The position numbers were made by a program, and so were the translations under genes. Below the pieces are notes generated by a model. That model ran no database searches and was not told where the DNA came from. It saw only the letters and a program-made list of their open reading frames with translations. Positions 2,332-58,225 of a stretch of 64,000 bases of DNA are shown here, one piece after another. The stretch's first letter is position 1, and every line of letters starts with the position of its first letter. The DNA comes from Planctomycetota bacterium (GTDB taxonomy: Bacteria > Planctomycetota > UBA1135 > GCA-002686595). The stretch spans positions 62,001 to 126,000 of the forward strand of contig JANQEJ010000037.1 of NCBI GenBank assembly GCA_028278425.1, written 5' to 3'.

Positions 2332-3699
2332 CTAGTGGCCGCCCTCCCCTGCGCCGTTTTCGTGCGACCCGAGGAAGCGCACGTAGTGGACGATCGCCCA
2401 GAAGTCCTCGTCGGACAAAAGCCGGTTCCCCGAGGGGTCGGTCAACGTGGTCTGCGCAGGCATCGGCGTGCCGTTGATCCCCGCGTGGACGCGCCGATAG
2501 ATGTCGATCGGACGCCGGCCGAAGCGATACACACCGCGCGTCAGGTCGCGCGGAGCGATCTCCTCGCCCCAGTCATCCTTGATCGGGACCATTTCCTGCG
2601 TCTCCGGATCCTGCTCCTTGGCCGACGGGCCGTTGCCGCGGCCGTCGATGCCGTGGCAGCTCGCGCAGTTGGCGGTTGCCTCGTCGTTGAAGAGCTCGCG
2701 GCCGCGAGCGATCATCTCCTGGCTCGCGGGCGGCACTTCGCCGTCGTAGGTGATCACGTAGTCGTCCGCCGAACGCCACTTGTCCCACTCCGACTCGTAG
2801 TTCTCGATCACGCCGTCGAGCGTGATCCCGCCCTCGTCGTAGTCGTAGTCGACCGCGGCGAGCTCCTCGACCCGTCCCCGGATCGAGAGCAGGCGCACGT
2901 AATCGACCAAGCCGTGGAGCTGCGCGTCCGAGAAGCGGCGGAAGGACGGCATCGAAGTCGTGTAGACGCCTTCGCTCAGAATGCGGAAGACGTCCTGGCG
3001 CCGGGGACGGGCCTTGTCGCGCAACGCGGTGAACTTGAAGATCCCCCGGCGGTAGTCGCGCGGTCGCGGGTTCAGGAAGTCGGCGGTCGGCCCGTCGCCG
3101 CCGCCCTCGACGCCGTGGCAGTGGAGGCACTGCTGGCGGTACATCTCCGCGGACTCCCGCAGGGTCGGGTAGTAGTTCTGGAGGTCGTACACCCAACGCT
3201 CCTGGATCTCCGCGATCAGCGCGTCGACGTCCGACTCTTCGTCCGCTCGCGCCTCCTCGATGGCGGCCATGTCGTCCTTCCACCAGCGCCGCAGGTCGAT
3301 CGCCTCGCGCGGCAGGTCGACGTCGTCGAATTCGCCGGCCTCGACGTGCGCGATCGCCTTCGCGAAGCGACGGCCGTTGTCGGCGAGCATCGCTTCGAGC
3401 TCCGCTTCGGTCAGGTCGTCGACGCCCGAGTTCGGGTTGAAGTCGTCGTCCAGGAGCTCCTCGGTCAGGAAGAACCCCGGGTTGGACGGCGTGCCGAAGA
3501 GCATCTCCAGCGCCCCGCGCAACTGGTCCTGCGCGGTCGGGTCACCCAGGTACTCGTCGAAAGCCGGGTCGTCGGAGAACTTCGGATTGAGGTTGAAGCG
3601 CAGCTCGGGCGGTTCGGGCTCGATCTTGCAGCCCAAGGAGACGCCGAGCGACGCGACCGCCACGGCGGCTGCGGCGCGGGAGAGTCTCATCGAGGTCAT
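2332..3699 (-). CDS. Dihaem c-type cytochrome lipoprotein
   Basis: Predicted membrane-anchored periplasmic electron carrier. From ATG at 3699 (455 aa) there is a lipoprotein signal with lipobox Cys at residue 24 (GVSLGC), an acidic region of about 160 residues without haem motifs, then two class-I cytochrome c domains. Haem sites are CLHCH at 191-195 and CASCH at 345-349, with likely axial methionines at 250 (MPSF) and 413 (MPAQ). The frame stays open 50 codons upstream, but this start places the signal peptide at the N-terminus. It is first in the run with ctaC and ctaD, so it probably donates electrons to that oxidase. It could also be related to the cytochrome subunits of alternative complex III; no other subunit of that complex is in view. 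Confidence 0.9.
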   Translation of the reverse strand: MTSMRLSRAAAAVAVASLGVSLGCKIEPEPPELRFNLNPKFSDDPAFDEYLGDPTAQDQLRGALEMLFGTPSNPGFFLTEELLDDDFNPNSGVDDLTEAELEAMLADNGRRFAKAIAHVEAGEFDDVDLPREAIDLRRWWKDDMAAIEEARADEESDVDALIAEIQERWVYDLQNYYPTLRESAEMYRQQCLHCHGVEGGGDGPTADFLNPRPRDYRRGIFKFTALRDKARPRRQDVFRILSEGVYTTSMPSFRRFSDAQLHGLVDYVRLLSIRGRVEELAAVDYDYDEGGITLDGVIENYESEWDKWRSADDYVITYDGEVPPASQEMIARGRELFNDEATANCASCHGIDGRGNGPSAKEQDPETQEMVPIKDDWGEEIAPRDLTRGVYRFGRRPIDIYRRVHAGINGTPMPAQTTLTDPSGNRLLSDEDFWAIVHYVRFLGSHENGAGEGGH

Positions 3700-3946
3700 T
3701 CGGTTGGGGTTGGTCGCGCGGGGATCCAGGACCGGCGTTGGGTGTCCCGGCGTGCGGCAGCGCCGGAAACGGATGGGGATGGGCCCTTCCAGGGCTGGGC
3801 GGACGCTGATTTTTGGCGGCAAGTCTGGCGGCCTGACCGTTCCTGTCAAGGCGAAGCGGGGGGAGGCCGCCGATCCGGGCCCCCACCGATCGGGCCGGGA
3901 TTGTCCCCGGGGCGGGAACCCGACTCAAGCGCCAAGCGGCGCCGGC

Positions 3947-4807: not shown

Positions 4808-5526
4808 GGGTCCGATCGGTCCAGGACGGATTTCAGGCGCCGGATCGCCTGGTAGTAGTTGGCGCGCGAGCTCTCCTCGGTGATGCCGAGCGCGGCGGCG
4901 ATCTCCGCGTGCGTGAGGTCGTGGTTCACGCGCAGGTCCACCACCTGTCTTTGCCGGCTCGGAAGCCGCGCGATCTCCACGCGCACGCGGTTGCGGACCT
5001 CGCACTCCTCGAGCTCGGTCCCCACCGGAACGCCGTCGGCGGGCAGATCCGCCGACGCCTCCTCGGCGCCGGCGTCGAGCGAAGCGGGCGCCGGGCGACG
5101 GTGGCGCTGGCGCGCGAGGTTGAGCGCGATGGAGAGCACCCACGAGCGCAGCCGGTCCGGCTCGCGCAGATCGGCCAGCCGCTCGAAGGCCCGCGTCCAG
5201 GTCTCCTGGAAGATCTCCCGGGCGTCCTCGGCGTTCCGGACCAGGGAGCGGAGCGTTCCCCAGACCGGGGCGGCGTGTCGTCGGAGCAGAACATCGAAAC
5301 TCTCGCGGTCCCCCGACAGGACCCGGACGATGATCTCGCGGTCGTTGGGTTCCAAGCTCTCACTGTCCGGGCGCCGGGGCCCGCAGCGGACGGACGGCTC
5401 GGCGCCGCGTGAAACGGGACCCGGCGGGCGGGGCGTCCCCGGATCGGTCGGCGGCCTGAACCCTAGAGCATCCAACGACTTGCGTCGACGGGGCGACTCC
5501 TCCCGGACGCTCCACCGGGGCTCCAT
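4804..5526 (-). CDS. ECF-type RNA polymerase sigma factor
   Basis: Group IV sigma factor that redirects RNA polymerase. Region 2 (FDVLLRRHAAPVWGTLRSLV... EIFQETWTRAF) and region 4 with a helix-turn-helix (LPSRQRQVVDLRV... HAEIAAALGITEESSRANYY) are intact. Translation from ATG 5526 gives 240 aa with a Pro/Arg-rich N-terminal extension. A TTG at 5355 would give 183 aa, the usual family length, so the start is uncertain. A TAGAAG box 9 nt before the ATG is a weak argument for the longer form. It is coupled by ATGA to the anti-sigma factor and divergent from the ygfZ-like gene. Confidence 0.9.
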   Translation of the reverse strand: MEPRWSVREESPRRRKSLDALGFRPPTDPGTPRPPGPVSRGAEPSVRCGPRRPDSESLEPNDREIIVRVLSGDRESFDVLLRRHAAPVWGTLRSLVRNAEDAREIFQETWTRAFERLADLREPDRLRSWVLSIALNLARQRHRRPAPASLDAGAEEASADLPADGVPVGTELEECEVRNRVRVEIARLPSRQRQVVDLRVNHDLTHAEIAAALGITEESSRANYYQAIRRLKSVLDRSDP

Positions 5527-5581
5527 GGGGGGCTTCTTCTATCCTCGTGCGGCCCCATTTCGAACCCGACCCGTCCCGTCG

Positions 5582-6685
5582 ATGCAGAGCTCCCCCCTCC
5601 TCGCCCTCCACGAGCAAGCCGGCGCCCGGCTGGCCCCACGCCCGGAGGCTCCGGACACGACCTCCGTCCTGACCTTCGGGGACGTCCCGGCCGAATACCG
5701 GGCGGCCCAGGAGGCCTGCGCGCTCCTCGACGACACCGACGGCGGAGCCGTCCGCGTCGGCGGGAGCGACGCGGCGGCCTTCCTCCACCGGCTGCTCGCC
5801 AACGACGTCCGCGGGCTCGAGGCGGGCGGCGGAAACCGCAACCTCCTCCTGACGGGGAAGGGCAAGATCCGCTTCGACTTCGCGCTCTTCCATCGCGGCG
5901 AGGACTTCCTGCTTCACACGTCGCCCGGTAGCGCGGGCGGTTTGGTGGCGGCGCTCGACATGTACCTCTTCAACGAGGACGTCCAGCTCGAAGACAAGTC
6001 GGAAGAGACCGCCCCGATCTCGCTCTGCGGCCCGCGGGCCGCAGAGGTCCTCGGAGCCGCTCTCGGCGAGTCCCCGCCCGAAACGGACTACGCGTGGAAG
6101 GAGATCCCCTACCGAGACCGCCGGGCGTTCGTGGCGGCGGTGCCGGTGGCCGGCTCCCCCGGCTTCCGCGTGGACGCCGGTCCCGAAGCGGCGGCGAGCC
6201 TTTGGAGCGCGTTCCGCGAGGCGGGCGGCGAGCCGATCGGCATCGCGGCGCGCGACATCCTTCGCGTCGAAGCCGGCGCGGCGCTCTACGGCGTCGACGT
6301 CAGCGACGAGATCTACCCGCAGGAGGCGCGGCTCGAGGCGGGCTTCAACCTCTCCAAGGGCTGCTACATCGGCCAGGAGGTGGTCGCGAAGATCGACACC
6401 TACGGCGGGCTCAACAAGCGCCTCATGGCTCTGCGCGTTTCCCACGACGACCCGGTGCCCCCCGGAACCCGGCTCCTGTTCGAGGAGGAAGGCCGGGAAC
6501 GCAACCTCGGCGTGACGACGTCGTGGGCGTACTCGTTCGTCCTCGACACGGGGCTCGTGCTCGCCTACGTCAAGCGGAGGCACCAGGACGTCGGGGTGAC
6601 GTTCAAGCTGGGCGACACGGGCGCCGAAGCGACCATCGTCGCCATGCCCGTCCGCGCTGGCGCAGTGACGCCGGCGGAGGCATAG
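5582..6685 (+). CDS. ygfZ: YgfZ/GcvT-like folate-binding protein
   Basis: Tetrahydrofolate-dependent accessory protein that in known bacteria supports assembly or repair of iron-sulfur enzymes. The 367-residue product has the aminomethyltransferase-like fold sequence pattern throughout. It carries the YgfZ signature KGCYIGQE near residue 259, whose cysteine separates this family from true glycine-cleavage T proteins. No glycine cleavage partners (GcvH, GcvP) are nearby, which agrees. The ATG at 5582 was chosen because the homologous region begins soon after it; the frame is open far upstream, through the sigma gene on the other strand. It ends 3 nt from the convergent DUF3108-like gene. Confidence 0.9.
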   Translation: MQSSPLLALHEQAGARLAPRPEAPDTTSVLTFGDVPAEYRAAQEACALLDDTDGGAVRVGGSDAAAFLHRLLANDVRGLEAGGGNRNLLLTGKGKIRFDFALFHRGEDFLLHTSPGSAGGLVAALDMYLFNEDVQLEDKSEETAPISLCGPRAAEVLGAALGESPPETDYAWKEIPYRDRRAFVAAVPVAGSPGFRVDAGPEAAASLWSAFREAGGEPIGIAARDILRVEAGAALYGVDVSDEIYPQEARLEAGFNLSKGCYIGQEVVAKIDTYGGLNKRLMALRVSHDDPVPPGTRLLFEEEGRERNLGVTTSWAYSFVLDTGLVLAYVKRRHQDVGVTFKLGDTGAEATIVAMPVRAGAVTPAEA

Positions 6686-6688
6686 GGA

Positions 6689-7633
6689 TCAGCCGACGGG
6701 CCTGAAGCCCTTCGGCGTGCCGCTGTAGCTCTTGAGCACGACGTCGACCGCGAGGTCGATCAAGCCGATCGGGATGTCGCCGGTGACCCGCACCGGGACG
6801 CCGGTCTTGCGGTCGACCCAGAGCTCGATGGAGCCGTGGATGCCGAAGAGCCCCTCGAAGGTCTTCTCCTTCTCCGACGTGTCGTCGGTGACCTCGCCGG
6901 GATAGGGGCGCGGCTCGAGCAGGATCTTCACGGTTTCGAACCTCCCGGCCGCGGTCTCCTGCACGGACACCTCGCCGCGCCGCAGTCGGATCTCCCAGAG
7001 ATCGAGCTTGTCGGCGATCGGGAAGACCATCGAGTCCAGATCCTCGCGGATCATCGTCCGCGCGTAGTAGACCGCCGTGAGCATGTCGAGCGGCTCCACC
7101 GAGAGCTCGCGGTCCCGCGGGTCCTTCCAGATGCGCGTCCCCGGCGGCGCGCCGTGGTGCGTGTCGCGGCGATAGCGCAGGTAGGACCGCCCGTCCTTCC
7201 AGCCGATCGAGTTCTCGCGGCGGCGGTTCTTCGAACCCTCCTGCTTGTAGTTGTAGACGATCCACGGCCACTCGACGGGATGGACCCGCGACTCGATCGT
7301 GGCGTCCATCGAGTACAGCTTGTAGTCGCCCCGCGCGTGGACGCGCATCCACGCGGTCTCGCGCTTCGTCTCGCCGCCGCCGTTGGTCCCGAGCAGGAGC
7401 ACCGACTCGCGATAAGGCTCGACGCCGGCGGACATGGTGACGTTGCCCACCGGCGCCTCGACGATGCCCAGCCCGACGCGAACCCGGTACCTCAGGTGCT
7501 CGCCGCGCGGCAGCACGAGCGCGTACTCCGACTTCCCCCAGTCGATCGTCAGGGTGTCGTCCGCCGCCGGCTCGTCCTGGGCCGGGCCGAGGCAAGCCAG
7601 CATCGCGAGCGCTGCGGGGACGAGCGGGTACAT
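6689..7633 (-). CDS. DUF3108-like secreted protein
   Basis: A 314-residue exported protein resembling the DUF3108 family of periplasmic beta-rich proteins with no established biochemical role. The N-terminus is a signal sequence (about 18 residues) with a cysteine at 14 that may make it a lipoprotein. Family-like features are the early LRYRVRVGLG strand, the central GTRIWKDP/YYARTM region, and the C-terminal segment GSIELWVDRKTGVPVRVTG followed by a final KSYSGTPKGF. It stands alone between convergent ygfZ and the leucine-dehydrogenase-like gene, which is 25 nt upstream on the same strand. Confidence 0.78.
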   Translation of the reverse strand: MYPLVPAALAMLACLGPAQDEPAADDTLTIDWGKSEYALVLPRGEHLRYRVRVGLGIVEAPVGNVTMSAGVEPYRESVLLLGTNGGGETKRETAWMRVHARGDYKLYSMDATIESRVHPVEWPWIVYNYKQEGSKNRRRENSIGWKDGRSYLRYRRDTHHGAPPGTRIWKDPRDRELSVEPLDMLTAVYYARTMIREDLDSMVFPIADKLDLWEIRLRRGEVSVQETAAGRFETVKILLEPRPYPGEVTDDTSEKEKTFEGLFGIHGSIELWVDRKTGVPVRVTGDIPIGLIDLAVDVVLKSYSGTPKGFRPVG

Positions 7634-7658
7634 CGGTGTGGGTGATAAGGCTCCGGAG

Positions 7659-8726
7659 CTAGTTTTTCGAGAGGGTCGCCCTGGCGGCGCGGCGCTCGGC
7701 GATCCGGCGCTCGGCCTCCTCCGCGGCGACCCGCGCGGGCGGGCGGGCCTCCGCGGCGGCCCTACGAAGGACTTCGGCCGCCACGGACCCGATCCTGCGC
7801 CCGATTTCGTCCTTGCCCGCCGGTTCCCCCCGGAGGTGGAAGGTCGCCCCGCGGATCACGGCGCCCGAGTTGATGACGAAGTCGGGGACGTAGAGGATCC
7901 CGCGCTCGTGAAGCTGGTCGCCGTGGCGCGACTTCGCCAGGACGTTGTTCGCGGCTCCCGCGACCGCCCGGGCGGCGAGCCGGCGGATCGTCACGTCGTG
8001 CAGAACGCCCCCCATCGCGCAGGGGCAGAACACGTCGGCTTCCGCCTCGAACTCGGTGCCGGGTTCCAGGAGCTCGATCCCGAGCTCCCGCTCCGCGGCC
8101 GCGGCGCGCTCCGCGTCCAGCTCCGTCGCGCGGACGCGCGCGCCGCGCTCGGTCAGGAGGCGCGCCATGCCGCGCCCCACGTTGCCGAGCCCCTGGATCA
8201 CGACCGTGCGGCGCGGCCAGTCCTCCTCGCCGTCGAGCTGGCAGAGGGCAGCCGCGACGCCGGCGAAGGCACCGGAGCACGTGGCGCCGGTCAGGTCGCC
8301 GGGTCCTTCCTCCCCCGGCGGGGTGACGTGGCGGGTCGCCGCGGCGACCCAGCCGAGCTCCCGCTCTCCCGTTCCGACGTCCGGGCCGGCGTAGTAGCGG
8401 CCGCCGAGGCGCTCGATCGACACCCCGAGCTCGCGGTAGACGCGCTCCAGATCGAGGCCGGGCCGATCGAGCAACACGAGCTTGCCGCCGCCCCCGGGAA
8501 GGCCGGCCAGCGCCACCTTCCACGACATCGCGAGCGACAGCCTCAGGCAGTCGAGCAACGCCGCTTTCTCCGTGGCGTAGGCGAAGCGGCGGATGCCGCC
8601 GAAGGCCGGACCGCCGCTCGTGTCGTGGAGGGCGAGGAAGGCCCTCAAACCCGACTCGCGGTCCTGGAAGGCGACGACTTCCTCGAAGTCCTCGCGCGAC
8701 ATCGCATCCAGGATGTGGACCGCCAC
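7659..8726 (-). CDS. Leu/Phe/Val/Glu dehydrogenase family protein (leucine-dehydrogenase-like)
   Basis: NAD-dependent oxidative deamination of a branched-chain or aromatic amino acid is expected. From GTG at 8726 the protein is 355 aa, close to the roughly 360 of leucine dehydrogenases and shorter than glutamate dehydrogenases. Visible motifs are the substrate-domain segment GPAFGGIRR, the lysine in MSWKVALAGLPGGGGK (glycine-rich catalytic loop), AGPDVGTGERELGWV, and the Rossmann fingerprint GLGNVGRGMARLL followed by an acidic residue. The frame is open further upstream but that part overlaps the divergent gene. A TACAAT box lies 6 nt before the GTG. Exact substrate cannot be read from sequence. 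Confidence 0.88.
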   Translation of the reverse strand: MAVHILDAMSREDFEEVVAFQDRESGLRAFLALHDTSGGPAFGGIRRFAYATEKAALLDCLRLSLAMSWKVALAGLPGGGGKLVLLDRPGLDLERVYRELGVSIERLGGRYYAGPDVGTGERELGWVAAATRHVTPPGEEGPGDLTGATCSGAFAGVAAALCQLDGEEDWPRRTVVIQGLGNVGRGMARLLTERGARVRATELDAERAAAAERELGIELLEPGTEFEAEADVFCPCAMGGVLHDVTIRRLAARAVAGAANNVLAKSRHGDQLHERGILYVPDFVINSGAVIRGATFHLRGEPAGKDEIGRRIGSVAAEVLRRAAAEARPPARVAAEEAERRIAERRAARATLSKN

Positions 8727-8732
8727 GGGGGG

Positions 8733-8738
8733 ATTGTA
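8733..8738 (-). promoter_or_regulatory. -10-like TACAAT box, probable leaderless promoter
   Basis: TACAAT on the minus strand, 6 nt upstream of the GTG of the leucine-dehydrogenase-like gene, with no Shine-Dalgarno between. One of about a dozen TANNNT boxes placed 6-10 nt before starts in this window. Confidence 0.5.
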
Positions 8739-8778
8739 CCCTGGGAAGATCCCGGCCCTTTGCGCGTCGGAGCACCCC

Positions 8779-9723
8779 ATGCCTGTCGAGAGCCTCCCCC
8801 GTCGTCTCCGAAGCGCGCTCGCCCTCGCCGCGGCGCTCGCCGCTTGCGGTTCCTGCAACTCGACTCCGGACGAACCGGAGGGTGAGCCGTGGGTGCCGCC
8901 GCCGGTGGAGCCTGAGCCCTCGGTGGGCTACTACCTGACCGATCTCGACAACCAGCTCAAGGCCTGGACCAACCTCAAGCTCACGGCCAACTCGAATCGC
9001 GACCGGCGAATCCTGCGCGGGCTGGAGCGCGAGCTCACCCAGGTCACCGCGCGGCGTCAGGACGACCTGCTCGCGCAGCTCGAGTCGGGCTACCCGAAGA
9101 ACCGCGCGGTCGCCGCGGTCGCGTTGGGCTTCACGGGGGACACCGCGGTGGTCAGCCCGCTTCTGAACGCGCTCGCCGACCCCGATCCCGAGGTGGTCAA
9201 CAACGCGCTCCTGGGCATCGGCGTCCTGGCGTCGCCGGACACGCCGCTGGCGCAGCTCTGCTACGTCCTGAACACCGACCCCGACGCGTGGACCCGCAAC
9301 AACGCGGCGTACGCGATGCAGGCCATCGTCTACGCGAACGTCGTCGAACGCGGAGCACCACCGGAGGACGATTGCGTGCTCGAGGCGTGCCGCGACGCGC
9401 TGATCGACAGCGAGCCGGGCGTCCGCGCCCAGGCGGCGAGCATTCTCGGGATCCTGCTCGACGAAGAGTCGCTGCAGCCCCTGGGCGATCTGCTCTACGA
9501 CGAGGTGCCCTTGGTGTCGAAGGCGGCCGCCGCTTCGCTCGCGAACATCGGACGCAAGCGAATGGAGTCGAAGGGAGCCGTCGGCCGGCTCCTCGTGAAC
9601 GCGCTCGAGCGCGTGAAGCCGTCGCAGCGCGCCTACATCATCACCCAGCTCCAGCGCGTCTCCGCCGAGGACTACGGCGACGACACCGAGCTGTGGGTCG
9701 AGTGGGCGTACCGGCTGCCCTGA
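8779..9723 (+). CDS. HEAT-repeat lipoprotein
   Basis: A 314-residue lipoprotein. The signal peptide ends in LAAC with the lipidated Cys at 23, followed by a Pro/Glu-rich linker. From about residue 100 onward there are alpha-helical repeats of HEAT type (RAVAAVALGFTGDTAVVSPL, EVVNNALLGIGVLA, GVRAQAASILGILLDEESLQ, LVSKAAAASLANIG). Such proteins act as scaffolds; the partner is unknown. The start is divergent from the dehydrogenase with only 52 bp between, and it is followed 35 bp later by the aminotransferase. Other genes here encode similar lipoproteins with helical repeats, typical of Planctomycetota. Confidence 0.8.
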   Translation: MPVESLPRRLRSALALAAALAACGSCNSTPDEPEGEPWVPPPVEPEPSVGYYLTDLDNQLKAWTNLKLTANSNRDRRILRGLERELTQVTARRQDDLLAQLESGYPKNRAVAAVALGFTGDTAVVSPLLNALADPDPEVVNNALLGIGVLASPDTPLAQLCYVLNTDPDAWTRNNAAYAMQAIVYANVVERGAPPEDDCVLEACRDALIDSEPGVRAQAASILGILLDEESLQPLGDLLYDEVPLVSKAAAASLANIGRKRMESKGAVGRLLVNALERVKPSQRAYIITQLQRVSAEDYGDDTELWVEWAYRLP

Positions 9724-9746
9724 ACGACCGGCGGCCGGGAGCGTGG

Positions 9747-9752
9747 TAGGCT
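9747..9752 (+). promoter_or_regulatory. -10-like TAGGCT box, probable leaderless promoter
   Basis: TAGGCT ends 6 nt before the ATG of the aminotransferase gene at 9759; no Shine-Dalgarno is visible. Confidence 0.5.
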
Positions 9753-9758
9753 GCTCCC

Positions 9759-10922
9759 ATGGGGCGCCCCTTCGTCTCGCGCAAGGCCGCACGCTTCACG
9801 GAATCGGTCATCCGCGAGATGTCGCGCGTCTGCGCGCAGCACGGCGGCATCAACCTCGCCCAGGGATTCCCGGACTTCCCGGCACCCGCGGCGATGAAGG
9901 AGGCCGCCAAACGCGCGATCGACGCCGACATCAACCAGTACGCCGTCACCTGGGGGTCGCCACGCTTGCGCGCGGCGATCGCGGCGCGCACCAGCGCGTA
10001 CAACCGCATCGCGACCGACGCCGGCGCCAACGTCACCGTCTGCTGCGGCGCGACCGAATCGATGATCGCGGCCCTCTTGGCCGTCCTCGATCCGGGGGAC
10101 GAGGTCATCGTGTTCGAGCCGTTCTACGAAAACTACGGGCCGGACTGCATCCTGTCGGGCGCCGTTCCCCGCTTCGTCCGGCTCTCGCCTCCGGAGTGGA
10201 GCTTCGACCGCGAAGAGCTGGCGCGCGCGTTCGGTCCGAAGACGCGTGCGATCATCATCAACACGCCCCACAACCCCACCGGCAAGGTGTTCGCGCGGGA
10301 GGAGCTCGAGTTCATCGCGGGGCTGTGCCGCGAGCACGACGCGCTGGCGATCACCGACGAGATCTACGAGTACATCCTCTACGACGGCGCGGAGCACGTC
10401 TCCATCGGCGCCCTCGAAGGCATGTCCGAGCACACCGTCACGATCAGCGGCCTCTCGAAGACGTGGAGCGCCACGGGATGGCGCGTGGGGTGGTGCGTCG
10501 CCTCCGAGGAGATCACCGGCGCCATCCGCAAGACGCACGACTTCCTCACCGTCGGCGCGCCCGCTCCGCTCCAGGAGGCCGCCGCGGAGGCGCTGGCGTT
10601 CGACCGCGCGTACTTCGACGGCCTCGCCGAAGACTACCGAGAGCGGCGCGACCTGCTCGCGAGCGTCCTCGAGGAGACCGGATTCCGCGTGTACCTCCCC
10701 GGCGGGTCGTACTACATCATGACGGACGTCGGCGGCCTGACCGACGTGGACGACGTCACCTTTGCCGACCAGCTCGTGCGGGACGGCGGCGTCGCGACGG
10801 TGCCCGGCTCCAGCTTCTTCCACGACCCCGCCGACGGACGCACGATGATCCGCTTCTGCTTTGCCAAACGCCGCGAGACGCTCGAGCGCGCCGCCGAAGC
10901 GCTGCGCAGGAGGCTCGGGTGA
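9759..10922 (+). CDS. Class I/II PLP-dependent aminotransferase
   Basis: Fold-type I transaminase, probably for aspartate, methionine or kynurenine-type substrates. The 387-residue protein has INLAQGFPDF (31-40), typical of the kynurenine/glutamine/methionine aminotransferase group, HNPTGKV at 171-177, the PLP-contacting D200 and Y203 (ITDEIYEY), and the Schiff-base lysine K234 in SGLSKTWSATGWRVGW. Length is normal. Its stop overlaps the GTG of the next gene as GTGA, so the two are likely co-transcribed. Substrate choice cannot be settled without comparison to characterised enzymes. Confidence 0.9.
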   Translation: MGRPFVSRKAARFTESVIREMSRVCAQHGGINLAQGFPDFPAPAAMKEAAKRAIDADINQYAVTWGSPRLRAAIAARTSAYNRIATDAGANVTVCCGATESMIAALLAVLDPGDEVIVFEPFYENYGPDCILSGAVPRFVRLSPPEWSFDREELARAFGPKTRAIIINTPHNPTGKVFAREELEFIAGLCREHDALAITDEIYEYILYDGAEHVSIGALEGMSEHTVTISGLSKTWSATGWRVGWCVASEEITGAIRKTHDFLTVGAPAPLQEAAAEALAFDRAYFDGLAEDYRERRDLLASVLEETGFRVYLPGGSYYIMTDVGGLTDVDDVTFADQLVRDGGVATVPGSSFFHDPADGRTMIRFCFAKRRETLERAAEALRRRLG

Positions 10923-51895: not shown

Positions 51896-52375
51896 CTATT
51901 GGAACGGGCTCTCGCGGTCGGGCGCGGCGGCGCGCAGCTTGGTCTCGAACTCGGCGTGGTGCGCGTTGGCGAGCCCGACGGCCGTCCACTCGCCGCGCAG
52001 GCGGAAGCGCAGGTGGTCGCCGGTCAGCCGCCATTCCTCGAGGTCCGCGAGGCGCCGCACGTACCAGCCGCGCCGGACGCCGTCGCGGCCGCAGACGCGG
52101 TCGCCGTCCGCGGGACGCAGCAGCACGAACGCGAGCGTCAGCGCCAGCGTCGAGAGGCTCCACGGCAGCGGAACCTGATCGCTCCCGAGCACGGCGGCGA
52201 TGAGCGCCGCGGCGACGAGGCCCACGCCGAAGAGGCGGCCGCGGAGTCCGGGCAGCTCGCGCTGAACGACGTCCCCCACCGCGCGGGCGCGGACGCGCAC
52301 GGCGAGCGCGAGCGCGACGCCGACGGCGAGCGCGACGTCGGCGCAAAGGAAGACGGCCTGGAAGTGGGCGGGCAT
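51896..52375 (-). CDS. Hypothetical membrane protein flanking the peptide island
   Basis: A 159-residue protein from ATG 52375. Two or three hydrophobic segments (about 6-25, 43-62, 68-83) are followed by a soluble tail with GWYVRRLADLEEWRLTGDHLRFRLRGEW. Not recognised. Its start codon lies inside the left 63-bp direct repeat; before the island arrived it would have been divergent from the acyl-CoA synthetase now at 56621. A TATTCT box lies 10 nt upstream. Confidence 0.65.
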   Translation of the reverse strand: MPAHFQAVFLCADVALAVGVALALAVRVRARAVGDVVQRELPGLRGRLFGVGLVAAALIAAVLGSDQVPLPWSLSTLALTLAFVLLRPADGDRVCGRDGVRRGWYVRRLADLEEWRLTGDHLRFRLRGEWTAVGLANAHHAEFETKLRAAAPDRESPFQ

Positions 52376-52426
52376 GGGGGCGCGTAGAATAGCGTGCCCG
52401 ACGCCCTTTCCACTCCACGGCGTGAC
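52364..52426 (+). repeat. Left 63-bp direct repeat bounding the peptide island
   Basis: Matches 56584-56646 at 56 of 63 positions without gaps; the first 27 bases are identical. It carries the ATG of the membrane protein gene (minus strand, 52375-52373), the TAGAAT box and a decayed copy of the acyl-CoA synthetase start region, in which ATG has become ACG (52401-52403). The repeat unit equals the divergent promoter region of the two genes that flank the island. Confidence 0.92.
52386..52391 (-). promoter_or_regulatory. -10-like TATTCT box inside the left repeat
   Basis: TATTCT on the minus strand, 10 nt upstream of the ATG at 52375. In the right repeat copy this reads CATTCT, so only the left copy keeps the box that serves the leftward gene. 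Confidence 0.45.
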
Positions 52427-52463
52427 GGGAGCGGAGGGGACGGTTCCCCACCCGAAGGGAGAT

Positions 52464-53825
52464 TCACCGCGGAGCCGAGAGCGGCTCCCCGCGCCGCCTC
52501 TCGGCGCCGTTCCCCGACGCCGGCCTCGTGACCCAGGTCGCGGTGTCCGGGTCGTACATGCAGTTCCAGTGCCGCGCGCCCGCGTGGCCCTTCCGTTCCA
52601 CCGTCCGCACGAGACACGCGCGGCAGCCAAGCCGGAACTCGCAGCCGCCGCATGCAGGGGTATGCCTTCGCGCCAGGTCGTCCACCTCCTGGAGCATCTC
52701 CTCCCGGAGGACGTCCTCCATGCCGGTCTCGTTCAGGTCGACCAACTCCTTCCGCCAGCCGATGCAGGGCATCATCCGACCGTCGGCTGCGATGAAGTAC
52801 GCGTTGTCGAAGCAGTAGTGCGTCTCCCCGTTCGCCTGAAACGCGTCAACGCCGACCTTGAACGACTGGGGGGAGCTGGCTCCCGTGAAGGCGCCCAGCT
52901 CTTCGACCGATTCGCCGCTTCCGGAGGCATACGGGAACACCATGACCACGGCGGCGCCGAGCTCCCGACCCCAGGCCGCCACGCGGTCCAGCCCTTCGCG
53001 ATCCGCCACACGGAAAGGAACCTTGAGCGAAAAGGCGACGCGCGCCGCCTTGAGGGCCGCCGCGGCGTTCACGAGGGCATCGAAACTCCCCGGCACGCCG
53101 ACGGCCTGCTCAAAGTCGTGTTCCCGGTTCGAGGGTGCCAGGAGGACCAGATGAACGGGCTTTCCGCGGAGACGGTTCGCCACGCTCTCGTCGATGAGGT
53201 GCCCGGTGGAGTGAACCTCCAGGCGCATGCCGAGCCCCGTGCCGGCGTCCAGCAGGGCCCACAGGCGGTCCGCTTCGAGGAACGGCTCCCCGCCGCGGAT
53301 GATCAGCTTGTCTACTCCGACCTCGTTCAAGATCTCGACGGCCGATACCAGCTCGTCGATCGGAAGAAACTCGCCGTGGTCGCTCCACACGCCGCAGGAA
53401 CAAGCGTCGGAGGTCAGCCCGGCACCCGACGTACACCATTCGCAGTCGTAAACGCAGCGATCGCTGATCTCGACCGTCAACCTCCCACCCTCCCGGAACT
53501 GCCCGAGTCTCTGCACTTGACTCCTCAGCGGGGTGGGCCGGAAGTTCTCCACGCCGGTCCTGCGCTCCGTGAAGAAGCCCAGATTCAGCTTGGACAGGCC
53601 GGATGCGTATCCAACCAGGTCGATCTCGCGAACCCCGGCCTCGGTTGCAGCTTCGGCCAGTGACTTCCCCGAGTGGAGAAGGCACAAGGCCCGCGCGAAT
53701 CGGGCGTCACGAATCCAGTAGATTTCGCGCTCGAACAGCCCGTGGATGGCGAGACCTTGCCGCCCCCTGACGAGCCGCGCGTCGGGTTGAAACGCGAAAT
53801 GGCGTCCCCGCTCGGTTGGTTTCAT
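52464..53825 (-). CDS. Radical SAM/SPASM peptide-modifying enzyme (second of two)
   Basis: A 453-residue radical SAM protein. The N-terminal 90 residues (FAFQPDARLVRGRQGLAIHG, LCLLHSGKSLAEAATEAGV) resemble a PqqD/RRE-type peptide-binding domain. The [4Fe-4S]-SAM motif is C124-x3-C128-x2-C131 (SDRCVYDCEWC), with GGEPFLE after it. The C-terminal SPASM-like region has CFDNAYFIAADGRMMPC and a cluster CGGCEFRLGCRAC...C for auxiliary clusters. It overlaps the preceding rSAM gene by ATGA, so both enzymes are made together. It probably forms thioether or carbon-carbon links in the precursor encoded at 56169, but the reaction cannot be read from sequence. Confidence 0.88.
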   Translation of the reverse strand: MKPTERGRHFAFQPDARLVRGRQGLAIHGLFEREIYWIRDARFARALCLLHSGKSLAEAATEAGVREIDLVGYASGLSKLNLGFFTERRTGVENFRPTPLRSQVQRLGQFREGGRLTVEISDRCVYDCEWCTSGAGLTSDACSCGVWSDHGEFLPIDELVSAVEILNEVGVDKLIIRGGEPFLEADRLWALLDAGTGLGMRLEVHSTGHLIDESVANRLRGKPVHLVLLAPSNREHDFEQAVGVPGSFDALVNAAAALKAARVAFSLKVPFRVADREGLDRVAAWGRELGAAVVMVFPYASGSGESVEELGAFTGASSPQSFKVGVDAFQANGETHYCFDNAYFIAADGRMMPCIGWRKELVDLNETGMEDVLREEMLQEVDDLARRHTPACGGCEFRLGCRACLVRTVERKGHAGARHWNCMYDPDTATWVTRPASGNGAERRRGEPLSAPR

Positions 53826-55456
53826 GACGGGAGCTCCAGCAGTCCGTTGCGGTCCATCAAGGGATCTCCGGACGAGAGCGCGTTCGGAGCTTCCTCAAGT
53901 ATCGTGTAGAGGGCGATCAACTGCTGGGCGATTCCGCCGCAGGTGACGTCGCACATCTCCTCCGAGACGCGAAAGTCACCGCCATCGCAGGCCTGGGCGT
54001 AGCAGGTGCCGCACAGCGCGCGAGCCCAGCAGCGGTCACAGTCCGGGAGCGCATCGCGGTATCGACCCAGGACCGAGGCGGCTCGGTCCAGATCGAAGCC
54101 GCGCTCGACGTCGCCGATCGGGAAGTCCTCGTTGATCCTCTCGCAGAGGTGAAAGCGACCGTCGGTGGAGACCGCAATGCGCCGGCCGGGTTCGCAGGTG
54201 CCCGTAGTCCAATGGCGGCCCGGGATTCCGACGAACATCGTGCGTTCGTACAGGGTCCTGAGTCCGGACTCGAAGAGCCTATGGAAGAAGCTCCCCTCCG
54301 GCTCCGGAACGCCCCGCCGCTTCCTGTCACGGAATTCGTCGAACAGCTCGTGGTACTGCTTCTCCGCTCGCCGCGTGTCAGCGGGGTATTTCTCGTGGAA
54401 CTCGCCGTGGGCCTGATCGCGGATGTTCCCCACGAAATCGATGGGAGGTACGAGGGGGTCATCCGAGTCGAAGAAGTCCCGGATGGCGAGCAGATCCGAG
54501 TTGCCGGTCAGCGTGACCACGGCACGCACGTGCTTGTGGAAGTAGTCCTTGTCGATGCGGTAGAGCTTCTCCAGGTTGCGACGGATCGCGTCGAACGTGC
54601 CGCCATCGGCCCGATTCCTCCGGTAGCGGTCGTGCACCTCCTGGGGGCCGTCCATGCTGACCAACAGACCCACCTCGTTGTCGACCAGGAACTCCGCGAG
54701 GTCGATCGGCAGATGCGTGAGGTTGGTCGTCGCCGAAAAACAGAGGTTGTAATGAGCTTTCCGCTTGGACCGCGCATAGGCGACGACGCGCCGCAGCAGA
54801 GGCCCCTCTAGCAGGGGTTCGCCGCCGAAGAACGCAATGTCCAGCTTGCGCCTGGGAATGGAGCGAAAGGGCCGCTGGTCGTTGAGCTCCAGGAAACGAT
54901 CCACCGCTCGCCGCGCGGTCTCCCAGGACATCTTGTCACGGCGAATCGATTTGTAGCCTTCGTATTGGCCGGAGAAGATGCAGTACTTGCACCGGAGATT
55001 GCAGTCGTCGGTCAGGACCAGGATCAGGTTGCTCATCACCGACGGCGTCGGCCTCCAGGCCGTGCCGAGAGGAGATTCGCACGCATTCACTCCCCGGTTG
55101 GTGTGGTCCGCGCACTCGTCGCAGGACGCGGCAGGGCCCGGAGCCTTGAAGCATCCGGCTCGCCTGCGCCATTTCAGGATGAGGGCGGTCAGGTGGGGCG
55201 GTGCCCCCAGAGCCTCGACGAAACCCGGAACGGCTTCGTCTGGCGTTGAGTAGAGCAGCTCCGTGTCCGCTACCGAGACTCCGTCCGGCCACGCGTGAAC
55301 CGTGCCGGTTGCCGCATCGAAGAGGTACTTCGCGCGGTTCATGGAGTAGAAGACTATGAAGTCCTTCGTTGAGCGAACGTGTGGCGTCGCGTCTGCTGGT
55401 GACTTCCGTTCAGACCGCCGACCGCCGTTCTGTCCCACATTCGTTGTTCCTAGCAT
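53822..55456 (-). CDS. Radical SAM/SPASM Cys-rich-peptide maturase (first of two)
   Basis: A 544-residue enzyme from ATG 55456 (AGGGAG Shine-Dalgarno 7 nt upstream). An N-terminal region (TKDFIVFYSMNRAKYLFDAA) looks like a leader-binding domain. An unusual Cys-containing stretch (CFKAPGPAASCDEC) follows, then the SAM motif C152-x3-C156-x2-C159 (TDDCNLRCKYC), FFGGEPLLEG and SMDGPQEVHDRYR. The C-terminal SPASM domain has CEPGRRIAVSTDGRFHLCER, IGDVERGFD and CDRCWARALCGTCYA. This layout resembles the SCIFF/CcpM (CLI_3235-class) maturases that build thioethers in cysteine-rich peptides; this is a family-level judgement. It lies 101 nt downstream of the precursor gene, after a stem-loop. Confidence 0.9.
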   Translation of the reverse strand: MLGTTNVGQNGGRRSERKSPADATPHVRSTKDFIVFYSMNRAKYLFDAATGTVHAWPDGVSVADTELLYSTPDEAVPGFVEALGAPPHLTALILKWRRRAGCFKAPGPAASCDECADHTNRGVNACESPLGTAWRPTPSVMSNLILVLTDDCNLRCKYCIFSGQYEGYKSIRRDKMSWETARRAVDRFLELNDQRPFRSIPRRKLDIAFFGGEPLLEGPLLRRVVAYARSKRKAHYNLCFSATTNLTHLPIDLAEFLVDNEVGLLVSMDGPQEVHDRYRRNRADGGTFDAIRRNLEKLYRIDKDYFHKHVRAVVTLTGNSDLLAIRDFFDSDDPLVPPIDFVGNIRDQAHGEFHEKYPADTRRAEKQYHELFDEFRDRKRRGVPEPEGSFFHRLFESGLRTLYERTMFVGIPGRHWTTGTCEPGRRIAVSTDGRFHLCERINEDFPIGDVERGFDLDRAASVLGRYRDALPDCDRCWARALCGTCYAQACDGGDFRVSEEMCDVTCGGIAQQLIALYTILEEAPNALSSGDPLMDRNGLLELPS

Positions 55457-55496
55457 GCCATGGCTCCCTGGCGTCGACCGATAACCGTGGAGGCGC

Positions 55497-55524
55497 GGGT
55501 GAAGCCGCGCACTGGGCTTCACCC
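55497..55524 (-). terminator. Stem-loop between precursor and maturase genes (attenuator candidate)
   Basis: Perfect 10-bp inverted repeat (GGGTGAAGCC at 55497-55506, GGCTTCACCC at 55515-55524) with an 8-nt loop, placed in the 101-nt gap after the precursor stop. No run of T follows on the minus strand, so a classical terminator is unlikely. Stem-loops here commonly lower or protect transcripts so that precursor exceeds enzyme. Confidence 0.6.
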
Positions 55525-55557
55525 CGGGCAGGACTCATTCACGCTGGTCGGCTGAGA

Positions 55558-56169
55558 TCAGCTCCGGTATCCGATCGGCATCGGTTGATCCGGCGTGGCG
55601 CTGGAGAACAGCGAGCCGGCGATCCCTCCGACCGTAACGACTGAGGCCGTTATCGCGGCCGCGCCGACGCCGACGACGACGGACAGAACACACGAACCGC
55701 AGGCCGAGCAGACGCTGCAAGTACTGCAGGTGGCGCACGCCGCGCACCATGCGCAGTTGTCCGCCGCGAGGTCGGTCGCGCCGAGGCTGGTGTGTAGCGT
55801 ACGGGCCAGGTCCGGCGAGACGGGCATCGTGCTGCTCGTCATGGCCCCGGAGTCCTCCAGCACCTTGTAGAGAAGCTCGTAGTAATCCGTGGGAGCCGTC
55901 TTCCCCGCGGCCACGCCCTTCCTGATGGCGTCTCGGATCTTGTCGTCGTTCGCCTGAACGACTCTATGGATTTGCTTGTCGAGGAGGCTGGTGGGCGACC
56001 CATCCTTGTCGACGGGCCCTTGAGTCGCCCGAAGGAGCCTCCCCGCGGCTTTCTTCGTGGCGTCGGTCGTGGCGGCATCGGGTTCGACACCCCCCGCCAT
56101 GCTCTTCACGGTTTTCTCGCAGAGCGCTACGTCCTTCTCAAGCTCGGGAGTAAGCTGAAACTGCTCCAC
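55558..56169 (-). CDS. Cys-ladder RiPP precursor peptide with hydrophobic C-terminal tail
   Basis: A 203-residue protein from GTG with the strongest Shine-Dalgarno of the island. Residues 1-135 are a hydrophilic helical leader-like part (EKDVALCEKTVKSMAGG, LLDKQIHRVVQANDDKIRDA, YYELLYKVLEDSG). Then cysteines sit at 139, 142, 145, 148, 151, 154, 157 and 160, exactly every third residue, separated by small residues plus one Trp (N138-C-A-W-C first). Residues 161-188 are Val/Ala/Gly/Ile-rich (VLSVVVGVGAAAITASVV) and could span a membrane. The tail ends SATPDQPMPIGYRS. Next to two radical SAM/SPASM genes this is most likely the modified substrate. I know of no characterised peptide with this exact ladder. 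A metal-binding protein is an alternative. Confidence 0.85.
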   Translation of the reverse strand: MEQFQLTPELEKDVALCEKTVKSMAGGVEPDAATTDATKKAAGRLLRATQGPVDKDGSPTSLLDKQIHRVVQANDDKIRDAIRKGVAAGKTAPTDYYELLYKVLEDSGAMTSSTMPVSPDLARTLHTSLGATDLAADNCAWCAACATCSTCSVCSACGSCVLSVVVGVGAAAITASVVTVGGIAGSLFSSATPDQPMPIGYRS

Positions 56170-56425
56170 AATGAGATCCTCCTTTTAGTCACTACTTCGT
56201 TTGACGCGAGCAATCGAAGCGACCACTCTCCACTCGAGATTCTCCCTCGGGGACCACGCCGAGGGCATTCGAACAAGTGCGTACTACGGCGGTGGAATCG
56301 ACGTACGGGGTTCCCGCACGGATGCGATTCCTTGGAGGAAATGCACCGAACTACAGGTGCGATACGCACCAAGATCGGATGGCACGCTAGCGTAGATCGC
56401 CGATGAGGATCGACAGGGGAAAAGC
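56170..56425. other. Divergent control region of the peptide island
   Basis: A 256-bp gap between the precursor (leftward) and the miniprotein (rightward), visibly less GC-rich than its surroundings (29 of 60 bases at 56161-56220 are G or C). It holds a 7-bp stem-loop (CCCTCGG 56244-56250, CCGAGGG 56259-56265). Promoters must lie here, but I cannot fix -35/-10 boxes with confidence. Confidence 0.5.
56178..56183 (-). promoter_or_regulatory. Strong Shine-Dalgarno (AGGAGG) of the precursor gene
   Basis: AGGAGG within AAAAGGAGGATC on the minus strand, 8 nt before the GTG at 56169. This fixes the start and predicts high translation, as expected for a substrate peptide. Confidence 0.8.
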
Positions 56426-56569
56426 ATGAGACGTCTGGGATACTTGGGCTTTCTTGGTCTGCTGGGTCTGCTGGGCTTCAAGGACCCGTCGCTCTTCTAC
56501 CTGTTCTTCTTGTTCGCTTGCTTCTGGTTCCTGAAGTTGCCGGACAGGAGCAAGAAGACAGACGGTTGA
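56426..56569 (+). CDS. 47-residue DUF3796-like membrane miniprotein
   Basis: A short frame with AGGGGA 5 nt before the ATG. The peptide starts MRRLGYLGFLGLLGLLGFKD, continues with an aromatic hydrophobic segment (LFYLFFLFACFWFLKL) and ends in a charged tail (PDRSKKTDG). The LGFLGLLGLLGF-type repeat is characteristic of DUF3796 and related mini-membrane proteins of unknown function. It is divergent from the precursor and inside the direct-repeat-bounded island, so it may help membrane handling, immunity or export of the modified product. Too short for many gene finders. Confidence 0.75.
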   Translation: MRRLGYLGFLGLLGLLGFKDPSLFYLFFLFACFWFLKLPDRSKKTDG

Positions 56570-56583
56570 GGCCATGGCGTCCG

Positions 56584-56646
56584 GTGGGCGGGCATGGGGG
56601 CGCGTAGAATGGAGCCGCCGATGCCCTTTCCCCTCCACGGCGTGAC
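56584..56646 (+). repeat. Right 63-bp direct repeat bounding the peptide island
   Basis: Second copy of the repeat at 52364-52426, 4220 bp downstream. It contains the intact TAGAAT box and ATG (56621) of the acyl-CoA synthetase gene, plus a relic of the membrane protein start (GGGCGGGCAT). The island is therefore inserted with duplication of its target promoter region. Confidence 0.92.
56605..56610 (+). promoter_or_regulatory. -10-like TAGAAT box of the acyl-CoA synthetase gene
   Basis: TAGAAT ends 10 nt before the ATG at 56621, no Shine-Dalgarno. The same hexamer is kept in the left repeat at 52385-52390. Confidence 0.55.
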
Positions 56647-58225
56647 CCAGGGTGAGCTCCTCGACCGGCTCGCCGCGGAGCTTCCCGAGCAGGACGCGAT
56701 CGTCTACCCGCAGTTCGGGACCCGCCTCTCCTACGAAGGGCTGCGGGACCGCGCCGACGCGCTGGCGCGCGGCTTCCTGGCGCTCGGGATCGAGCCGGGC
56801 GAGCGCGTGGCGGTCTGGGCGGACAACCGGCCGGATTGGATTCCGGTGCAATTCGCCCTGGCCAAGATCGGGGCGATCCTGGTCACGGCCAACGTGGCGC
56901 TTCAGCGCGACGAGGTGGGTTACCTGCTCGAGCAGAGCCGCGCGTGCGCGCTCGTCTGCGCGCCGGGGCTGAAGGAAGACGAGTACTTCGAGGCGGTGGA
57001 GTCCCTGCGGGCCGAGGCGGGCGCGCTGCCGGAGCTGCGGCACGCGATCTTCTTCGACGGCGGCCCGCGCGACGGCTTCGTCGGCCTCGCGGAGCTGGTC
57101 GAGCGCGGCGTCGAAGTCCCGCTCGAGCGCGTGCACGAGCGGACGGCTGCGACTCGAGTCGGCGATCCGACGAACATCCAGTACACGTCCGGCACCACGG
57201 GCTTCCCGAAGGGCGTCGTGCTCACGCACGCGAACATCGTCGAGAACGCGCACGCCGTGATGCGCCGGCTGAAGTCGACCGGCGACGACCGCGTGCTCGT
57301 GCACGTGCCGCTCTTCCACTGCTTCGGCTGCGTGATCGCGGTGCTCGGAGCGATGACCAACGGCCTTGTGATGGTCGTCACGCAGCGGTTCGACCCGCTG
57401 CTCTCGCTCCGGGCGGTCCACGAGGAGCGCTGCACGCTGATCCACGGCGTGCCGACGATGTTCCTGGCGATGCTCGAGCACGAGGATTTCGCGCGCTTCG
57501 ACCTCTCGTCCCTGCGCGCCGGGGTGATGGGCGGCGCGATGTGCCCCGAAGCGCTGATGCGGCGCGTGATCGAAGAGATGGGCTGCCGCGGGATCATCTC
57601 CGGCTACGGGTTGACCGAGTGCTCGCCCGCCGTGTCCGGCCCGTCGCCGGACGACCCAATAGAGGTGCGCGTCCAGACCGTCGGCCGCCCGTACGACGGC
57701 ATCGAGGTGCGCGTCGTCGACCCCGAGAGTCTGGCCGACGCTCCGGCCGGCAAGGCCGGCGAGCTCTGGGTCCACGGCCCCAACGTGATGCAGGGCTACT
57801 TCGAGGACCCGAAGGCCACCGCGGAGGCGATCACGCCGGACGGGTGGCTGCGCACCGGCGACCTCGCGACGCGCGACGCCGACGGGCTCGTGCGCATCGT
57901 GGGGCGCATCAAGGACATGATCATCCGCGGCGGCGAGAACGTGTACCCCGCCGAGGTCGAGGACGCCCTGCGCGCGCACGCCGCCGTGCGCGACGCGGCC
58001 GTGTTCGGCGTGCCGTCGGAGCGTTACGGCGAAGAGGTGGCGGCGGCGGTGGTGCTGCGCCCGAACGAGACGGCGACGGCGGAGGAGCTCGACGGCTTCC
58101 TCGAGGGCCGGCTCGCGCGCTTCAAGCGGCCGGCGGCGATCTACTTCGTCGAGGCCTTTCCCCTCACGCCGTCGGGCAAAGTGCAGAAGTTCGTGCTGCG
58201 CGCGCGCTACGGCGCCTCGACGTAG
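56621..58225 (+). CDS. AMP-dependent acyl-CoA synthetase/ligase
   Basis: ANL-superfamily enzyme activating a fatty or other carboxylic acid as acyl-AMP, then acyl-CoA; 534 aa. Motifs are the P-loop YTSGTTGFPKGVVLTH, GYGLTECSPAV (A5), GWLRTGDLATRDADGLVRIV (A7), GRIKDMIIRGGENVYPAEVE (A8) and the catalytic lysine in TPSGKVQKF (A10). The profile is that of medium/long-chain acyl-CoA synthetases. Two further in-frame ATGs lie upstream within the direct repeat (56594, 56609); 56621 is preferred for spacing to the TAGAAT box. Its end overlaps the convergent ATP-grasp gene by 19 bp. Confidence 0.92.
   Translation: MPFPLHGVTQGELLDRLAAELPEQDAIVYPQFGTRLSYEGLRDRADALARGFLALGIEPGERVAVWADNRPDWIPVQFALAKIGAILVTANVALQRDEVGYLLEQSRACALVCAPGLKEDEYFEAVESLRAEAGALPELRHAIFFDGGPRDGFVGLAELVERGVEVPLERVHERTAATRVGDPTNIQYTSGTTGFPKGVVLTHANIVENAHAVMRRLKSTGDDRVLVHVPLFHCFGCVIAVLGAMTNGLVMVVTQRFDPLLSLRAVHEERCTLIHGVPTMFLAMLEHEDFARFDLSSLRAGVMGGAMCPEALMRRVIEEMGCRGIISGYGLTECSPAVSGPSPDDPIEVRVQTVGRPYDGIEVRVVDPESLADAPAGKAGELWVHGPNVMQGYFEDPKATAEAITPDGWLRTGDLATRDADGLVRIVGRIKDMIIRGGENVYPAEVEDALRAHAAVRDAAVFGVPSERYGEEVAAAVVLRPNETATAEELDGFLEGRLARFKRPAAIYFVEAFPLTPSGKVQKFVLRARYGAST

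Follow-up and report, generated by a model that had tools for sequence, protein, structure and literature searches.

The stretch of DNA analysed here (the window) comprises 64,000 nucleotides of a Planctomycetota bacterium (GenBank assembly GCA_028278425.1, contig JANQEJ010000037.1). On its minus strand, positions 52464-56169 hold, in order of transcription, the genes of a cysteine-rich precursor protein and of two radical S-adenosylmethionine (SAM) enzymes, designated rSAM B and rSAM A. We see a slightly better than even chance (about 55%) that these two dissimilar enzymes crosslink a ladder of eight cysteines to the uncharged C-terminal tail of the long-leader precursor, likely as a nested thioether hairpin. 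Such a system would be sactipeptide-like, with a long leader and a zipped hairpin of six to eight rungs across the family. The original prediction, made from the letters of this stretch, had described the product as a sacti- or ranthipeptide; the present analysis narrows the crosslinks to a nested hairpin like that of thurincin H, the thioether itself being predicted.

The gene trio in three genomes

Gene context was read at three loci: the window, a contig of a Deltaproteobacteria metagenome-assembled genome (MAG; JAGUZM010000452.1, locus L002) and locus L148 in genome G982, which was found in the phylum of the genome carrying locus L030, a Nitrospira MAG. The order precursor, rSAM B, rSAM A is kept in all three, and the two enzyme genes overlap in each; in the window they are coupled through ATGA, in agreement with the two non-identical, same-strand radical SAM genes described previously. 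At L002 the precursor gene occupies 461-991, rSAM B extends to 2628 and rSAM A spans 2625-3929, whereas L148 is on the minus strand (precursor 7957-8448, rSAM B 6354-7928, rSAM A 5047-6354). Identity to the window copy of rSAM A is 42% at L002 and 37% at L148. The trio is thereby present in three genomes from at least two phyla, and because the same three genes stand in the same order in two other genomes, we regard it as a real system. The proposal of a peptide-modification system with a new class of precursor is well supported by this co-occurrence, and enzymes lacking the precursor in most relatives, which had been named as the finding that would speak against it, were not seen in the three loci read.

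The precursor family and the geometry of ladder and tail

The 203-residue protein with eight regularly spaced cysteines at the centre of that proposal is present as an open reading frame (ORF; Table 1). It starts with GTG, eight nucleotides downstream of a GGAGG at 56178-56182, and carries cysteines at residue 17 and then at residues 139, 142, 145, 148, 151, 154, 157 and 160. When the segment between the first ladder cysteine and the C-terminus was shuffled 200,000 times, no run of cysteines at spacing three exceeded six, short of the eight observed. Across the 55 residues from the first ladder cysteine there is neither a charged residue nor a histidine.

Alignments indicate that the three precursors are homologous, mainly in the leader. 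The L002 and window precursors share 25% identity over 115 columns (BLASTP E 2e-7), those of L148 and L002 42% over 77 columns (E 1e-12), and those of L148 and the window 25% over 167 columns (E 4e-15), the last alignment entering the Cys-rich part, which inflates the match. The leaders before the first ladder cysteine comprise 138 (window), 132 (L002) and 125 (L148) residues, and share a conserved segment, PxPxDYYxIYYKVLKDSG, about 20-30 residues N-terminal of the ladder. For the window precursor, no family in NCBIfam, Pfam or PADLOC gave a match. Its PDB profile matches, to MBD1 and a LIM protein, are at chance level (E 0.83 and 0.88; both are Cys-rich domains), as is a Vps5 match of one other precursor (E 0.29). 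A word-based search of 5.8 billion proteins returned only the precursor itself (1 of 1,023 candidates scored). Because the same search also missed both true homologues at L002 and L148, this result reflects divergence and not absence, and says little about how many homologues exist. Viral contigs scanned with the precursor alignment gave no locus.

Cysteines in the ladders number eight (window), seven (L002) and six (L148), spaced by three throughout, and the last cysteine is followed by 43, 25 and 22 residues, respectively. A phenylalanine stands 28, 25 and 22 residues after the last cysteine, i.e., at 3n+4 in all three precursors, n being the number of ladder cysteines. Ladder and tail therefore change length together, by three residues per cysteine. 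This phenylalanine is the final residue in L002 and L148, and 15 further residues follow it in the window; the L002 tail has a second phenylalanine at +24. When the three tails were shuffled, a common constant at slope 3 appeared in 376 of 200,000 trials, and in the real tails slopes of 0, 1, 2, 4, 5 and 6 give none. Up to this phenylalanine the tails contain no Asp, Glu or Asn, and Thr occurs only two to three times for six to eight cysteines. In the +6 and +7 registers, Gly, Ala and Val predominate among the candidate acceptors, and Ile, Leu, Ser, Thr and Phe also occur.

The links of thurincin H are described as Cys4-Ser28, Cys7-Thr25, Cys10-Thr22 and Cys13-Asn19 (PMC8172795). By analogy, n donors in this geometry would place the last acceptor 3n+3 residues after the last cysteine, and the precursor family would fit if the last acceptor is the residue before the phenylalanine, or the phenylalanine itself with an offset larger by one. 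Judged from sequence layout and matched lengths, the three precursors are consistent with a nested hairpin of N-terminal cysteine donors and C-terminal acceptors.

Two radical SAM enzymes of different subfamilies

Both enzymes exceed the Pfam cut-off for Radical_SAM. The SPASM label originally given to the pair stands for rSAM A, which barely passes the Pfam threshold (21.9 bits vs. a cut-off of 21.5); rSAM B has no listed Pfam SPASM match and is SPASM-type through long matches to SPASM maturase models and to CteB.

As listed, rSAM B has 566 residues from a GTG, although the true start is likely the ATG at 55456, which is favoured by the aligned relatives and by a GGGAG seven nucleotides before it. 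Its top NCBIfam models are CcpM (215.4 bits), RumMC (192.9), a CFB radical SAM maturase (153), QhpD (146) and PapB (145). These scores are far under the curated cut-offs (CcpM 500, RumMC 720; SCIFF maturase 114.5 of 425 bits), and no NCBIfam cut-off is reached among the matches listed (25 of 59 models). The CcpM, RumMC, QhpD and PapB models match all 30 members of the rSAM B family at E 1e-10. In the AlphaFold model (mean predicted local distance difference test score, pLDDT, of 80), residues 49-122 adopt at a pLDDT of about 90 the four strands and three helices of a recognition element (RRE) for ribosomally synthesized and post-translationally modified peptides (RiPPs), and the closest solved fold found by Foldseek is CteB. 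Between the RRE and the radical SAM core, a linker modelled at low confidence (residues ~125-160) varies in length and is Cys-rich in several family members.

Among PDB profiles, rSAM A is matched best by that of the sactisynthase SkfB (E 2.2e-8), and the best fold matches of its model are SuiB, then SkfB. Residues 9-79 are predicted as four strands then three helices, an RRE-like order. Both enzymes would accordingly resemble the radical SAM/SPASM maturases with an N-terminal RRE that are typical of sactipeptides; the RREs are predictions that draw on element order and on the match of the fold as a whole, and the prediction is weak for rSAM A. As rSAM A and rSAM B belong to different subfamilies, rSAM A could run a different reaction. 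Shortly after its CxxxCxxC cluster motif, rSAM A has a CxC (residues 142 and 144) that is invariant in all eight aligned proteins and may provide an extra ligand.

Membership in the Nif11, SCIFF, CcpM, RumMC, GeoRSP, HxsB, CefB and CXXX-repeat systems was rejected, given that the listed models stay under their curated cut-offs and the window precursor belongs to no family searched. PADLOC matches to viperin (20-33 bits) were taken to reflect the shared radical SAM core.

A proposed nested hairpin and its alternatives

In the proposed mechanism, the conserved leader region (DYYxxYxxLxDSG) would dock on the predicted RRE domains of both enzymes, which would act jointly on the precursor in the manner of TrnC and TrnD. 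Cysteine donors at every third residue would be joined to tail acceptors at every third residue, perhaps inside out, with the first acceptor 6 or 7 residues past the last cysteine and the last at or next to the 3n+4 phenylalanine. Each of the n ladder cysteines would form one rung, giving eight in the window, seven in L002 and six in L148. In glycine the alpha carbon is the sole possible site of attack, and known ranthipeptides carry Cys-Asp, Cys-Glu or Cys-Asn links. Because the tails bear glycine, in a Gly/Ala/Val-rich context free of Asp, Glu and Asn up to the phenylalanine, alpha-carbon (sactionine) links would be favoured over ranthipeptide links. A more far-reaching version is offered tentatively and as clearly the less probable: the two enzymes might zip the hairpin rung by rung into a covalently stapled structure whose near-uncharged arms of 18-24 residues would be long enough to span a lipid bilayer, the large leader perhaps being retained, and this would be a new RiPP class evolving through the gain or loss of single three-residue rungs.

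Several observations weigh against the nested sactionine hairpin. CteB, the closest fold to rSAM B, is a gamma-carbon enzyme, and rSAM B also resembles QhpD and PapB, so the attacked carbon could differ. Confidence in the rSAM A model is low (mean pLDDT 61; N-terminal strands ~55; C-terminal part <50), the RRE of this enzyme being called from element order. The L148 tail bears a histidine and a charged residue (His158, Lys161). The length relation comes from only three precursors, and if the terminal phenylalanine is inherited, two three-residue differences would be its basis. Leaders of 125-138 residues lie outside the 8-29 residues of known sactipeptide leaders (PMC8326336). Sactipeptide clusters generally hold protease, transport or immunity genes (PMC8172795); here, as noted in the original prediction for the window, none was recognised in the island ORFs and six flanking ORFs scanned, nor among the scanned neighbours at L002 (one) and L148 (eight), several of these ORFs having no Pfam match. 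From the lack of such genes in the window, the original prediction suggested that the product may stay in the cell envelope.

The first alternative, which we consider unlikely, is that a CteB/QhpD-like enzyme forms beta- or gamma-carbon thioethers of the ranthipeptide type, or short rings within the ladder, with the tail serving merely as a membrane anchor. This would agree with the CteB fold and with the QhpD and PapB scores of rSAM B, and radical SAM enzymes grouping with QhpD might not make sactionines (PMC11002830). However, it would call for an Asp, Glu, Asn or Thr acceptor per cysteine, which the tails do not offer; RumMC, a Calpha enzyme, outscores both QhpD and PapB; and the co-varying tail length would be left unexplained.

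We give somewhat less credence to crosslinks embedded in a protein, as in quinohemoprotein amine dehydrogenase, where the 200-residue product would stay whole and the crosslinked ladder would have a structural or redox role within a membrane protein. The long conserved leader, the lack of a recognised protease or exporter in the scanned stretches and the QhpD-like profile match of rSAM B are all compatible with such a product, but no common partner subunit is seen beside the trio in the three stretches (that of L002 spans only 5.8 kb), and the layout of the C-terminal core resembles that of a sactipeptide. Finally, CxxC repeats can bind metals, and an unmodified metal- or cluster-binding ladder, with both enzymes serving another substrate, would suit the Cys-rich nature of the chance-level MBD1 and LIM matches and the weak matches of rSAM A to heme-pathway enzymes (AhbD, 60.7 bits vs. 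a cut-off of 500), yet it is improbable given the gene order kept in all three loci with peptide-maturase-type enzymes and predicted RRE domains, and a tail length that tracks the ladder, which is unexpected for a metal site.

Comparison with known systems

Sactipeptides are hairpin antibiotics. The layout predicted for the present family is that of thurincin H (ThnA/ThnB), whose nested hairpin has cysteine donors three residues apart along the N-terminal half of the core and acceptors at the same interval along the C-terminal half, and which likewise has a radical SAM maturase. In contrast to its four rungs, 40-residue precursor, protease and ABC transporter, as described (PMC8172795), the family here has six to eight candidate rungs, a leader of 125-138 residues, a second, dissimilar enzyme and no recognised export genes. 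CcpM and RumMC, the latter of ruminococcin C, are the nearest NCBIfam models to rSAM B, but rSAM B falls far short of their thresholds and the precursor is another one. The substrates of TrnC and TrnD, the enzymes of thuricin CD, are two short precursors with a cysteine spacing unlike the i+3 ladder. These enzymes have RRE domains and are reported to form one complex, with RRE-RRE contact in a predicted model, and to act jointly (PMC12093266), as proposed here for rSAM A and rSAM B; both are described as sactisynthases, however, whereas the present pair comes from different subfamilies. CteB, the SCIFF maturase of the ranthipeptide thermocellin, is related to rSAM B by fold, but is reported to make Cys-Thr gamma links (PMC11002830), and rSAM B stays well below the SCIFF maturase cut-off.

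The new features of the system are the leader of 125-138 residues, the pairing of a CteB/RumMC-like with a SkfB/SuiB-like enzyme, and the absence of recognisable protease or transporter genes nearby. No description of the precursor or of the enzyme pair was found in the open-access PMC literature, among the titles and starts of abstracts listed; since subscription papers and most preprints fall outside this scope, absence from print is not established.

Distribution of the enzyme family

The rSAM B family is sharply bounded, with 29 other proteins at 41-59% identity followed by a drop to 34% and below, among the 7,996 candidates sharing most words that were scored. Five relatives of rSAM A at 41-53% stand among the matches listed (7,997 candidates scored). 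The nearest relatives of rSAM B and rSAM A, P0003 and P0123, presumably lie on one 18,446-base contig from the same source. In a midpoint-rooted tree of 39 rows, from which three partial family proteins were dropped, the 28 rSAM B family rows form one clade on a long stem with a support of 100/100. A subclade of 13 rows, including Gammaproteobacteria protein P0030, lies outside the gene-context count.

The family is rare in sampled genomes. Of 101 genomes searched for the precursor, the source genome alone had it, and the rSAM B profile retrieved a single true member in each phylum sample: the source genome among 392 of its phylum, the L002 genome among 395 and G982 among 395 in the phylum of the Nitrospira MAG. 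One distant match per phylum sample was not counted. G982 is also the sole positive in its order (1 of 120) and family (1 of 31). A class sample from Gammaproteobacteria (274 genomes), which held no known positive, yielded no member with the profile, a result that shows nothing. The genome samples overlap, and in the phylum and class samples the top few candidates per genome were scored.

Genome contigs gave no match when scanned with rSAM B alone. Scanned with the family alignment they gave at least 61 loci, with L002 the sole family member among the matches listed (51%; next by E-value 31%). Three distant rSAM B matches (L149, L150 and L151; E 7e-77 to 5e-59) were left out of the family count, and the ORFs kept there (non-overlapping, at least 40 residues) hold no i+3 cysteine ladder. 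In viral contigs 79 loci matched rSAM B, none over 38%, and five plasmid records matched at 26-30%. Two IMG/VR contigs (L136, ~8000-9500; L138, ~5400-7300) carry, upstream of a same-strand radical SAM match, ORFs in which dense CxxC repeats extend over hundreds of residues; these look like another, far larger cysteine-ladder substrate in viral contigs. Cys-repeat ORFs of several hundred residues, mostly CxxxC, also stand upstream of a radical SAM match in Margulisiibacteria/Ca. Termititenax (L020, L022 and L023).

A bracketed island

A 63-bp direct repeat, which the original prediction does not mention, is 89% identical between its copies and brackets positions 52427-56583 (Table 1), an island of about 4.2 kb. 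The 7.8-Mb assembly (89% complete) contains no further full-length copy. By our reading, the start regions of the two flanking genes, encoding a small membrane protein on the left and an AMP-ligase on the right, fall within this repeat. The membrane gene is present in 30 other genomes of the 101 searched, and in one of the 16 inspected (G021, locus L167) it stands divergent from and adjacent to an AMP-ligase gene without the island, the match of this empty site at the DNA level being weak. No AMP-ligase match was seen near the membrane gene in the other 15 inspected stretches, some of which end at contig ends. GC content at third codon positions is 0.77-0.84 in the island ORFs vs. 0.89-0.95 in four flanking genes (ORFs 46323, 11860, 16843 and 7434 were left out, their codon pattern suggesting a wrong frame). 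Based on the bracketing repeat, the empty site and the lower GC content, the trio was most likely acquired, with target duplication. No recombinase was seen in the island, and 63 bp would be an unusual length for a transposon target duplication.

Table 1 Coordinates of the gene trio, precursor segments and island borders in the window
Feature	Position	Strand	Basis
Precursor protein, 203 residues: leader of 138 residues, eight-Cys ladder, uncharged tail, follower of 15 residues	55558..56169	-	ORF; homologues in L002 and L148
Leader motif PTDYYELLYKVLEDSG, kept in the three precursors, consensus PxPxDYYxIYYKVLKDSG	55846..55893	-	Alignment of three sequences
Ladder of candidate donors: eight Cys at i+3, residues 139-160	55690..55755	-	
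Uncharged tail with candidate acceptors, residues 161-188; last residue Phe188 (28 after the last Cys, 3n+4)	55606..55689	-	
rSAM B, radical SAM enzyme; RRE predicted at the N-terminus	53822..55522	-	Pfam/NCBIfam; model and PDB fold match to CteB; family alignment
rSAM A, second radical SAM/SPASM enzyme; RRE-like domain predicted at the N-terminus	52464..53825	-	Pfam; SkfB profile match; SuiB/SkfB fold match (low-confidence model)
Hydrophobic ORF of 47 residues, divergent, on the island	56426..56569	+	ORF; weak DUF3796 match below cut-off
Left border of the island: 63-bp start region, duplicated	52364..52426		Repeat comparison
Right border of the island: 63-bp start region, duplicated	56584..56646		Repeat comparison

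The divergent peptide of 47 residues reported previously is present and sits on the island, but nothing links it to the system: its proposed role as a membrane miniprotein of the pathway is not borne out, as no counterpart is evident beside the trio in L002 and L148 (ORF lists compared by eye, with no formal search). A 10-bp hairpin between precursor and rSAM B (55457-55557, minus strand) may set the ratio of precursor to enzyme, and is not significantly stabler than shuffles (folding energy z -0.97). Neither an Rfam match nor, by consensus scan, a sigma-70-type promoter was found at 52300-56700. About 1.2 kb from the L148 precursor gene lies a VapB-like/PIN-domain pair (9606-10200), probably an unrelated neighbour.

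Implications

Precursor-based mining would miss such clusters, because the libraries used contain no counterpart of the precursor family and the protein search with one member did not retrieve the others. One substrate here would unite enzymes resembling the SkfB and the CteB/QhpD groups, which may differ in chemistry, and each could be tested singly and jointly. Sactipeptides are generally reported with one to four bridges (PMC8326336), and the ranthipeptide freyrasin with six (PMC11002830). If our interpretation is correct, the nested thioether hairpin would be extended from one to four bridges to eight, the number of rungs would vary in whole three-residue steps, and the family would represent a natural route to long covalently stapled hairpins.

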